NCBI RefSeq assembly: GCF_026153355.1
Contig: NZ_CP110636.1
Coordinates: 1,364,001 to 1,428,000 of the forward strand
Origin: Streptomyces endophytica
GTDB taxonomy: Bacteria; Actinomycetota; Actinomycetes; Streptomycetales; Streptomycetaceae
Length of the DNA: 64,000 nt
Direction: 5' to 3'
This document shows positions 2,902-5,907 of the stretch, one piece after another. The stretch's first letter is position 1, and every line of letters begins with the position of its first letter. The notes under the pieces are model-generated. The model did not search any database. It was not told the origin of the DNA and saw only the letters and a program-made list of their open reading frames with translations. A program made the position numbers and the translations under genes.

Positions 2902-3582
2902 CTACGGCTCGAACTTGTAGCCCAGCCCGCGGACCGTGACGAGGTAGCGCGGCGCGCCCGGGTCGGGCTCGATCTTGGCCCGCAGGCGCTTGACGTGCAC
3001 GTCGAGGGTCTTGGTGTCGCCCACGTAGTCGGCGCCCCAGACCCGGTCGATCAGCTGCATGCGGGTCAGCACCCGGCCCGCGTTGCGCAGCAGCATCTCC
3101 AGGAGGTCGAACTCCTTCAGCGGGAGGTCGACCTTGCCGCCGGAGACCGTGACGACGTGGCGGTCCACGTCCATCCGGACCGGGCCGGCCTCCAGGGCCT
3201 GCGGGGTGACCTCCTCCGGCTCGCCGCGGCGGCGCAGCACGGCGCGGATGCGGGCGACCAGCTCGCGGGAGGAGAAGGGCTTGGTGACGTAGTCGTCGGC
3301 TCCTATCTCCAGGCCGACGACCTTGTCGATCTCGCTGTCCTTGGCGGTCACCATGATGACCGGGACGTTGGAGCGGTTGCGCAGCTGGCGGCAGACCTCG
3401 GTGCCGGGCAGACCCGGCAGCATCAGGTCCAGCAGGACGAGATCGGCGCCGTTGCGCTCGAACTCGTCCAGTCCGTCAGGGCCCGTAGCCGCGATGGCTA
3501 CCTCGAAGCCCTCCTTGCGGAGCATGTACGACAGTGCATCGCTGAACGATTCCTCGTCCTCGACGACGAGCACTCGGGTCAC
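2902..3582 (-). CDS. phoP: phosphate-responsive response regulator PhoP (OmpR family)
   Basis: DNA-binding response regulator of the phosphate-limitation two-component system. 226 residues: receiver domain (1-115) with the acidic pair near the N terminus (VEDEE), the phosphoacceptor in LVLLDLMLPG and the conserved lysine in VTKPF; OmpR-type winged helix (about 130-226) with DTKTLDVHVKRLRAKIEPDP and the final GLGYKFEP. Start is GTG 3580-3582 preceded by GGAGG. It overlaps the phoR stop by four bases (GTGA, 3579-3582), so the two are translationally coupled. Divergent phoU and PHO boxes at 4.92-5.04 kb support the identity. Confidence 0.96.
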   Translation of the reverse strand: MTRVLVVEDEESFSDALSYMLRKEGFEVAIAATGPDGLDEFERNGADLVLLDLMLPGLPGTEVCRQLRNRSNVPVIMVTAKDSEIDKVVGLEIGADDYVTKPFSSRELVARIRAVLRRRGEPEEVTPQALEAGPVRMDVDRHVVTVSGGKVDLPLKEFDLLEMLLRNAGRVLTRMQLIDRVWGADYVGDTKTLDVHVKRLRAKIEPDPGAPRYLVTVRGLGYKFEP

Positions 3583-4847
3583 GGAAGGACCTCCGGGGCT
3601 GGATGAGCAGGGAGCGGATCGTTGAAGGTCTCGTACGGGCGGTCCTCGTCGTCGAGGCCCTCCGCGGCGAGGTCGTCGGGCCGTTCGCGGTCGCGTACGG
3701 CCCCGGCTTCCGGGAGACGCAGGGTGAAGGTGGAGCCCTGTCCCTCAGCGCTCCACACCGTGACCTCCCCGCCGTGCGAGGCGGCCACGTGCTTGACGAT
3801 GGCGAGGCCGAGGCCGGTCCCGCCGGTGGCGCGGGAGCGCGCCGGGTCCACGCGGTAGAACCGCTCGAAGATGCGGTCCCGGTCCTTTTCGGATATCCCG
3901 ATGCCCTGGTCGGTCACGGCGATCTCGATCAGGTCGCCTCCGGGCGCGGAGATCCGCCGGCCGGCGATGCCGACGCGGGTGCGGGCCGGGGAGTAGTTGA
4001 CGGCGTTCTCGACGAGGTTGCCCAGGGCCGCGGCGAGCTGGCCGCGGTTGCCCCAGACGCTCAGGTCGGCGGTGCCTCCGGAGGCCATGGTGATCTGCTT
4101 GGCGCCGGCCTGCTGGCGGCAGCGGTCGATCGCCTCGGCGACCAGCTCGTCGACGCGGACCGGCTCGGCGTCCTCCAGCGGGTCGTCGTTCTGGACCCGG
4201 GAGAGGTCGATCAGCTCCTGGACGAGGTTGGTCAGGCGGGTGGCCTCGTTCTGCATCCGGCCGGCGAAGCGGGTGACCGCCTCGGGGTCGTCGCTGGCGT
4301 CCATCACGGCCTCGGAGAGCAGCGACAGCGCGCCGACCGGCGTCTTGAGCTCATGGCTGACGTTGGCGACGAAGTCCCGGCGGACCGCCTCTATGCGGCG
4401 GGCCTCGGTGAGGTCCTCGACCAGCAGCAGGACGAGCCGGGAGCCGAGCGGGGCGACCCGGGCGGAGACCGCGAGCGCCTCGCCGCGGCCGGTGCCCCGG
4501 CGCGGGAGGTCCAGCTCGACCTGGCGTATCTCGCCGTCCCTGCGGGTGTCCCGGGCCATCTGCATCATCGGCTCGACGGCGAGCTTGCCGCCGCGGACCA
4601 GCCCGAGCGCGTACGCCGCGGAGCTGGCCTTGACGACCGCGTCGGCCTCGTCGAGGACCACGGCGGAGGAGCGGAGCACCGACAGGACGGTGTCGACGCC
4701 GGGCGGCAGCACCGCGTCCGTGTGGAGCGAGGAGCGGGTGGGCTTGGCCTGGTCGCGCTCGCTCCAGCGGAACGCCAGCATCGCGAAGACACCGGTGCAC
4801 AACCCGGCGATCGCTGCCACTGCGGCGACGGCCGCATCCACGTTCAT
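3579..4847 (-). CDS. phoR: phosphate sensor histidine kinase PhoR
   Basis: Membrane-anchored kinase that phosphorylates PhoP when phosphate is scarce. 422 residues: one membrane segment near the N terminus (about 5-27), a PAS-like region, HisKA box FVANVSHELKTPVGAL with the phosphorylated His, then HATPase with N box (NLVENAVNYSP), G1 box DQGIGI and G2 box GGTGLGLAIVKH. Length and single TM anchor match SenX3/PhoR kinases of actinobacteria. The ATG is 74 bp from the first of two PHO boxes, consistent with autoregulation by PhoP. It is upstream of and overlaps phoP. Confidence 0.95.
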   Translation of the reverse strand: MNVDAAVAAVAAIAGLCTGVFAMLAFRWSERDQAKPTRSSLHTDAVLPPGVDTVLSVLRSSAVVLDEADAVVKASSAAYALGLVRGGKLAVEPMMQMARDTRRDGEIRQVELDLPRRGTGRGEALAVSARVAPLGSRLVLLLVEDLTEARRIEAVRRDFVANVSHELKTPVGALSLLSEAVMDASDDPEAVTRFAGRMQNEATRLTNLVQELIDLSRVQNDDPLEDAEPVRVDELVAEAIDRCRQQAGAKQITMASGGTADLSVWGNRGQLAAALGNLVENAVNYSPARTRVGIAGRRISAPGGDLIEIAVTDQGIGISEKDRDRIFERFYRVDPARSRATGGTGLGLAIVKHVAASHGGEVTVWSAEGQGSTFTLRLPEAGAVRDRERPDDLAAEGLDDEDRPYETFNDPLPAHPAPEVLP

Positions 4848-4920
4848 GACTCCAGAGTATGTGCCGGGTCCGACACTCCCCCAGCCTCGCGAGCCGCTGC
4901 TCGGACAGCCGTCGCCCAGA

Positions 4921-4953
4921 GTTCACCGTGGCGTCCGCGCGGGTTCACTCCGG
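4921..4953 (+). promoter_or_regulatory. PHO box 1 (three 11-bp direct repeat units) between phoR and phoU
   Basis: GTTCACCGTGG (4921-4931), CGTCCGCGCGG (4932-4942) and GTTCACTCCGG (4943-4953). Streptomyces PhoP binds 11-bp direct repeat units with core GTTCACC; units 1 and 3 match and are exactly 22 bp apart, unit 2 is degenerate. Located in the divergent phoR/phoU intergenic region, the classical PhoP-autoregulated promoter region. Confidence 0.85.
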
Positions 4954-5005
4954 GCGCCGGCACCGGGCGGACGGCCGCCCCGGAGGCGGTGGCAGGTCGC
5001 CCAGA

Positions 5006-5038
5006 GTTCACCTTGGCGTCGGCACCGGTTCACCCCCG
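5006..5038 (+). promoter_or_regulatory. PHO box 2 (three 11-bp direct repeat units), duplicate of PHO box 1
   Basis: GTTCACCTTGG (5006-5016), CGTCGGCACCG (5017-5027) and GTTCACCCCCG (5028-5038), again with the two strong units 22 bp apart. The flanking sequence GTCGCCCAGAGTTCACC precedes the strong unit in both boxes (4911-4927 and 4996-5012), showing that box 1 and box 2 arose by an 85-bp-offset duplication. Either box may serve phoR-phoP and phoU. Confidence 0.85.
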
Positions 5039-5229
5039 GTGGCACCGCAGGTCGCGATCCGGCCGCAGGGTGAGGGTGCGGTCCGGGTGACGGGCCGGTA
5101 CCGCCCGGGAGGGACCCGCGCGGACACGGACCGTGAGAGCGTGGACACCGGACCACCGCCGGGACCCACCGCCGCACTCCCCCCACGCGACACACGACAC
5201 CCGACACTCGACGCGAGAGAAGGACACAG

Positions 5230-5907
5230 ATGCGGGACGCGTACCACGAGGAGCTGGATTCGATCGGCGAGGGCCTGGTCGAAATGGCCCGGCTCGTCGG
5301 CTCCGCGATCGGGCGCGCCACCACGGCGATACTCGACGCGGACCTGAAGCTGGCCGAGCACGTCATCGCCGGCGACGAGAAGGTCGACGACCTCCAGCGC
5401 GACCTGGAGGCCCGGGCGATCGCCCTGCTGGCGCGGCAGCAGCCGGTCGCCACCGACCTGCGGATCGTCGTCACCTCACTGCGGATGAGCGCCGACCTGG
5501 AGCGCTCCGGCGACCTGGCCCAGCACGTGGCCAAGCTGGCCCGGCTGCGGTTCCCGGAGACGGCCGTGCCGCGCGATCTGCACGCCACCATCCTGGAGAT
5601 GGGGCAGCTGGCGCAGCGCCTGATGGCGAAGGCGGCCGAGGTCATCATCACCAAGGACGTCGAGCTGGCGCTCCAGCTGGAGCAGGACGACGACGCGATG
5701 GACCTGCTGCACCGCACGCTCTTCCAGCACCTGATGGACGACCGCTGGAAGCACGGCATCGAGACGGCCGTGGACGTGACCCTGCTCGGCCGTTACTACG
5801 AGCGATTCGCGGACCACGCGGTGTCCGTCGCCAAGCGGGTGGTCTACCTCGTCACCGGTGAGCACGCCGACGAGATCGCCCCGGCGGCACCGGTCGAGGG
5901 CGCGTAG
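5230..5907 (+). CDS. phoU: phosphate signalling accessory protein PhoU
   Basis: PhoU proteins are cytoplasmic all-helical proteins that damp PhoR signalling in response to Pst transporter activity. The 225-residue protein (MRDAYHEELDSIGEGLVEMA) contains two tandem three-helix PhoU domains (about 5-110 and 115-215), with conserved acidic clusters such as DEKVDDLQRDLEARA and LEQDDDAMDLLHR and the ERFADHAVSVAKR ending. ATG 5230 is preceded by GAAGGA. It is divergent from phoR across the PHO boxes. Confidence 0.95.
   Translation: MRDAYHEELDSIGEGLVEMARLVGSAIGRATTAILDADLKLAEHVIAGDEKVDDLQRDLEARAIALLARQQPVATDLRIVVTSLRMSADLERSGDLAQHVAKLARLRFPETAVPRDLHATILEMGQLAQRLMAKAAEVIITKDVELALQLEQDDDAMDLLHRTLFQHLMDDRWKHGIETAVDVTLLGRYYERFADHAVSVAKRVVYLVTGEHADEIAPAAPVEGA

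Follow-up and report, generated by a model that had tools for sequence, protein, structure and literature searches.

Two PHO-box arrays between phoR and phoU in Streptomyces endophytica: probable duplication and division of a shared ancestral operator

The window, a 64,000-nucleotide stretch of the Streptomyces endophytica genome (contig NZ_CP110636.1, positions 1,364,001 to 1,428,000), contains a divergent phosphate-control locus. On the minus strand lie the open reading frames of phoR, encoding a sensor kinase (3579..4847, with the A of the start codon at 4847), and phoP, encoding a response regulator (2902..3582), and on the plus strand lies that of phoU (5230..5907). PhoU matches the model TIGR02135 (phoU_full) with 193.9 bits against a cut-off of 130.25. 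PnpS/PhoR kinase models are the best NCBIfam matches of PhoR, and PhoP matches OmpR/PhoB-class models; as both lie below the cut-offs, these two proteins are named by the synteny of the locus. The start codons of phoR (4847, minus strand) and phoU (5230, plus strand) enclose an intergenic region of 382 bp, which holds two arrays of GTTCACC-type PHO-box units, both reading towards phoU. A sigma-70 and terminator scan of this segment and an Rfam search found nothing.

Both arrays consist of 11-nt direct repeats with a GTTCACC core, with at least two units in register. The original prediction placed two PHO boxes here, at 4921-4953 and 5006-5038 and thus offset by 85 bp, and this is borne out: the strong units, of GTTCACC type, start at 4921 and 4943 in the first box and at 5006 and 5028 in the second, a spacing of 22 bp in each, and weaker units precede and separate them. 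It counted three units per box, but each box has four, because the 10 bases preceding it belong to a conserved first unit in 11-nt phase (CGTCGCCCAGA and GGTCGCCCAGA), which hardly varies ahead of op1 across 154 distinct intergenic regions from Streptomyces. Operator 1 (op1; 4910..4953, plus strand), the predicted phoRP operator, therefore comprises units 4910-4920, 4921-4931, 4932-4942 and 4943-4953, and operator 2 (op2; 4995..5038, plus strand), the predicted phoU operator, comprises units 4995-5005, 5006-5016, 5017-5027 and 5028-5038, each array spanning 44 bp. The first unit of both probably corresponds to unit DRu1, which scored 3.3 bits in S. filipinensis (PMC6283541). The 17 identical bases once described as flanking the boxes, GTCGCCCAGAGTTCACC (4911-4927 and 4996-5012), are indeed identical, but they are made up of the 10 bases before each box and the first 7 bases of the box itself. 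Likewise, the 22-bp spacing of strong GTTCACC units holds in both boxes, although the last unit of the first box is GTTCACT, matching at 6 of 7 positions.

Judged by their letters, both 44-bp arrays match the published PhoP operator. With a 44-column operator matrix built from 158 op1 sequences, op1 scores 51.1 bits and op2 45.0 bits, and the two share 37 of their 44 bases. Within the 382-bp intergenic region, the best 44-nt self-match is 38, against a maximum of 30 in 400 dinucleotide shuffles, and the longest exact repeat is 17, against a shuffle maximum of 14. The pattern GTTCACC-N(10-20)-GTTCA occurs 13 times in the 6.9-Mb genome (4 times for a reversed-pattern control); three of the 13 matches have the 22-bp unit spacing, and two of these are in the intergenic region of the window. 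The two arrays also occupy conserved positions, op1 by its distance to phoR and op2 by its register with the phoU promoter. The two PHO-box arrays are a real and conserved feature of the phoR-phoU region.

Elsewhere in the genome, outside the window, two copies of GTTCACCGATCAGGTCAGTGGTTCA lie 37 bp apart (L089/L090; G000:C1:2398841-2398902), close to where a 464-aa ORF begins; its product looks like an enzyme of the menaquinone futalosine pathway.

Several further elements can be placed around the operators. On the phoRP side, a predicted -10 element (TACTCT; 4854..4859, minus strand) aligns by its distance from the start codon with the S. filipinensis -10 TAACCT and falls in conserved columns 7-12, and a predicted -35 element (CTGGGG; 4879..4884, minus strand; conserved columns 32-37) lies 19 bp from it, as in S. 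filipinensis. Between this promoter and op1 is CTCGGACAG (4900..4908, plus strand), the window's variant of a phoRP-side element, CTCGAACAC, conserved left of op1 across most of the genus. The spacer between the operators (4954..4994) has no detected phoU promoter motif. Op2 is followed by a predicted but diverged phoU promoter (5039..5084, plus strand), in which CACCGC (5043-5048) and CAGGGT (5066-5071) are separated by 17 bp. Further downstream, a phoU-promoter-like motif, GACCGTGAGAGCGTGG, matching CGTGRGAGCGTRG, stands without an operator at 5129..5144 (plus strand).

The locus was compared across relatives. A first set comprised the best 80 of at least 526 confirmed phoU matches. A genus sample, drawn evenly, counted 270 of 291 Streptomyces genomes with a phoU match; such a match was absent in 4 of 295 Streptomyces genomes (G050, G113, G130 and G135). 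A family search gave 48 loci, some of them from Streptomyces. One locus (L265) was left out before any counts, as its phoU start was not found. The resulting 399 upstream regions reduce to 369 distinct ones after merging of identical regions. The alignment of 154 distinct regions omitted four that lacked the phoR start pattern; with these added later, 158 regions served for the operator matrix. A locus titled Microtetraspora glauca NRRL B-3735 (L063) falls inside a Streptomyces clade with a 64-bp operator spacing, and its label may be wrong.

Op1 is found in all 399 loci at an almost fixed distance from the phoR start, 74 bp in 356 (the window among them), 75 bp in 41 and 73 bp in 2. The assigned phoR starts are ATG or GTG in every locus and open for 60 codons, and over these 60 residues the PhoR N terminus shows a median of 50 identities to that of the window (minimum 19). 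In the 154-region alignment, which located the phoR start by a sequence pattern, unit 1 and the core of unit 2 hardly vary, and their distance from that start is constant to within one base. Transcripts of phoR are reported to be leaderless (PMC6283541 section 8; S. filipinensis, S. coelicolor and S. lividans), and so the fixed distance to the start codon would also fix the distance from op1 to the phoRP transcription start, in the window by extension from these species. On the phoRP side, the left element CTCGAACA, scored with at most one mismatch over 8 nt and shifts of up to 2, stands left of the operator in 242 of the 290 regions that have just one. The units of a standard PhoB-type activator of phoRP would be expected in the orientation opposite to that of the op1 and op2 units, which point to phoU.

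Two sets of additional repeats were rejected as operators. What looks in many relatives like a third repeat, GTTCACGTCC, 85 bp before op1, is the coding start of phoR, ATGGACGTGAAC, read on the other strand; in many of L001-L080 these start codons give GTTCAC on the opposite strand, a coincidence of coding. Matches to GTTCACC at +57 or +77 from op1 lack the first unit and, by eye, lie in or adjoin the phoU promoter motif.

Whether a second operator is present can be read cleanly from the scores. In the 158 regions, 58 have one at 28.7-60.6 bits, the remaining 100 score -1.5 or less, and the two groups do not overlap; the highest score on the minus strand is 10.8. Among 120 held-out loci, 5 have a second operator and the other 115 score 1.8 or less. 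Over all 399 loci, 89 have a second operator, each scoring at least 28.7 bits, and 79 of the 369 distinct regions and 54 of the 270 genus-sample genomes, that of the window included, carry a second full operator. The commonest spacing between the two operators is 85 bp, as in the window (29 of 89 two-operator loci). The 28 distinct loci sampled outside Streptomyces within the family showed no second operator at a 12-bit threshold, and some of their single operators are themselves weak: the matrix was trained on op1 of the same Streptomyces genomes and loses sensitivity outside the genus (one single operator there scores 12.4).

The two-operator genomes are spread over several clades. On a tree of 133 loci, switches between one and two operators number at least 6; a tree of the 369 regions gives 13, a rough figure, as many rows of that tree rest on short partial coding sequence and gains and losses were not read from its root. 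The clade of the window has 12 members, all with a second operator, and its nearest relatives (five loci) have one. The original prediction had asked whether one or two boxes is ancestral; because all 28 loci from other genera and the nearest relatives of the window's clade have a single operator, one is probably the ancestral number, with repeated gains of a second. A relative inside the S. violaceusniger clade, L033, carries just one operator, which suggests either an operator loss or two gains around it.

In six members of the window's clade (L003, L094, L096, L097, L099 and L241), whose operators are spaced by 161/162 bp, a single inverted unit, GGTGAAC, lies 115-116 bp from op1; it is not found in the window.

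The flanks of the operators indicate what each copy serves. In S. filipinensis, the phoU promoter was mapped by 5' RACE, and its -35 element lies four bases from the last unit (PMC6283541). Most single-operator Streptomyces have CTCGAACA to the left of the operator and the phoU promoter to the right. We built a phoU promoter matrix from 131 single-operator regions, and it gave a median of 49.1 bits on another 131 that were held out. In the 79 two-operator regions, its median is -22.1 after op1 and 44.8 after op2; the score is higher after op2 in all 79 and exceeds 20 bits there in 64. The best register after op2, among shifts from -12 to +12, is that of single-operator regions (register 0) in 79/79. 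The left element is divided the opposite way, standing left of op1 in 64/79 and left of op2 in 0/79, so that genus-wide each copy keeps the flank of one promoter. Since the left element stays with op1 and the phoU promoter register with op2, one operator for each promoter is the simplest reading of the region and, by these alignments, its best-supported function. After the single operator of other genera, the phoU promoter matrix has a median of only -2.5 (28 loci); for this reason, single-operator Streptomyces serve as the model of the ancestral layout.

Similarity between op1 and op2 is 0.11 at position -12, 0.77 at -11 and 0.96 at -10; it thus begins abruptly at the first unit and fades past the fourth. 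Comparison of the spacer with a decayed promoter or with the left flank gave no clear homology and no clear excess over neighboring registers, and so the duplication is read from the operators. Op2 is also conserved. In six clade sets, hand-chosen and mostly taken from the tree of 133 loci, the identity of the op2 core is 0.90-0.97, against 0.57-0.86 for the spacer, and five members of the window's clade have a pairwise identity of 81% in op2 and 57% in the spacer.

The window and its clade stand apart in their phoU promoter. Right of op1, the phoU promoter score of the window is -22.9, and shuffled spacers have a median of -18.8 with a similar matrix. After op2, the best register is again 0 within the range -12 to +12, and the score is 3.8, 4.9 or -0.1 bits depending on the training set. 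Fifteen of the 79 two-operator regions score 20 bits or less at this position, and they include all 12 members of the window's clade. The original prediction offered one box per divergent promoter as one role for the duplication; the anatomy of the genus agrees with this in the constancy of op1 and the register of op2, but the phoU motif is weak in the window and in 12/12 clade members. Because the adjacent promoter scores weakly, the target of op2 in this clade is read from the register and from conservation: the mean share of the commonest base among the 12 members is 84% in the op2-adjacent promoter and 66% in the spacer. The distal motif CGTGRGAGCGTRG is present without mismatch in 11 of the 12 and with one mismatch in the other, at 96-240 bp beyond op2. 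In this clade, phoU may thus have two promoters, one of them PhoP-independent.

PHO boxes in the phoRP-phoU region have been published before, as has the S. natalensis count of four. Two boxes have been described for S. filipinensis and S. coelicolor and four for S. natalensis, and in S. filipinensis the number of boxes showed no simple link to the strength of phosphate control (PMC6283541). The region described there resembles that of the window in its 11-nt direct repeats towards phoU, its four units, its leaderless phoR and a phoU -35 element four bases from the last unit. In those species the DNA-binding domain of PhoP shifts the region. The S. filipinensis units form two boxes of two in apparently one stretch, in contrast to the two four-unit arrays 85 bp apart in the window. 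If the S. natalensis boxes are also of two units, its four phoU-phoRP boxes would equal the two four-unit operators of the window (Mendes 2007, as cited in PMC6283541). This four-box count probably reflects the same doubled operator. S. hygroscopicus record L013 (strain NBRC 13472) has two operators 85 bp apart, like the window. For another S. hygroscopicus strain, var. geldanus NRRL 3602, two DNase-protected regions are reported in phoRP-phoU, with 11-nt repeats like those of the window and with no distance between the regions stated (PMC6784220 section 6.3). S. natalensis belongs to the S. lydicus group, close to the window's clade. The genus-wide recurrence and the division of flanks between two operators were not found described in the literature searched, which included PMC6283541, PMC6784220, PMC4415409, PMC4700089, PMC7866108, PMC6988585, PMC7244524 and PMC11019849.

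Other readings of the doubled operator are unlikely to different degrees. PhoP bound at op1 might cooperate with PhoP bound at op2, through contact or looping, and so sharpen the phosphate response at both promoters, as the original prediction suggested; we regard this as unlikely. The discovery-set spacings (64, 85/86, 96, 105-107, 161/162 and 171 bp) did lie strikingly close to multiples of roughly 10.8 bp, which would place the operators on one face of the helix; scanning the period over these 6 clusters gave R 0.95 and p 0.002-0.003. However, the 120 held-out loci brought new spacings of 113, 124 and 185 bp beside two known values, so that the range is now 64 to 185 bp, and the signal faded. 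With all 9 clusters taken together, p rises to 0.14 under a scanned period and to 0.52 at a fixed 10.5 bp; the 13 distinct spacings, held-out loci included, retain a p of 0.038 with the period scanned but give 0.13 at 10.5 bp. Across the 9 clusters, a restriction of operator spacing to whole helical turns is not supported, and a cooperative, sharper response has no clear support.

Op2 could instead be a bystander left by passive duplication, with op1 alone controlling both phoRP and phoU. This would accord with the presence of op1 in every locus, with the single operator of L033, which implies that two are not essential, and with the weak op2-adjacent promoter in the window's clade. It is nevertheless very improbable, as op2 is conserved well above the spacer in the six clade sets, carries the phoU promoter register in 79/79 regions and has counterparts in several clades, with at least 6 changes among 133 loci. 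A second copy that is unconserved in relatives would have spoken for passive duplication; op2 is conserved, and all 12 clade members have a second operator. We give hardly any credence to the second array being mainly a site for a different regulator with the same repeat recognition, AfsR for example, or for competition between it and PhoP. In S. coelicolor, the PHO boxes upstream of phoRP are reported targets of AfsR (PMC6988585), but op2 matches the op1 matrix strongly over all four units, and the sequence comparison does not single out an AfsR preference.

We therefore favor, as the probable explanation, a duplicated and then divided ancestral shared operator, in which op1 (4910-4953) would serve the phoRP promoter and op2 (4995-5038) the phoU promoter. 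The ancestor would have had a single operator between the divergent phoRP and phoU promoters that was used by both. After duplication of the segment carrying it, one copy, op1, would have stayed with phoRP and the other, op2, with phoU, allowing autoactivation of the kinase-regulator operon and induction of its negative modulator phoU to be tuned separately. In the window's clade, the promoter beside op2 has diverged, and the downstream operator-free motif may allow some PhoP-independent transcription of phoU. More tentatively, and with somewhat less than even confidence, the shared operator may have been duplicated and divided time and again within the genus (no fewer than 6 changes on the tree of 133 loci, and 13 on the weaker tree of 369), so that the positive arm of the feedback loop was uncoupled from the negative one convergently; the window's clade would add an operator-free phoU promoter.

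In Streptomyces, PhoP-PhoR controls the response to phosphate and thereby antibiotic production. If some lineages have dedicated operators and others share one, relatives would provide natural experiments on whether the activator operon and its negative modulator have to respond together, and the locus would offer repeated instances of an operator being duplicated and divided at a divergent bacterial promoter.
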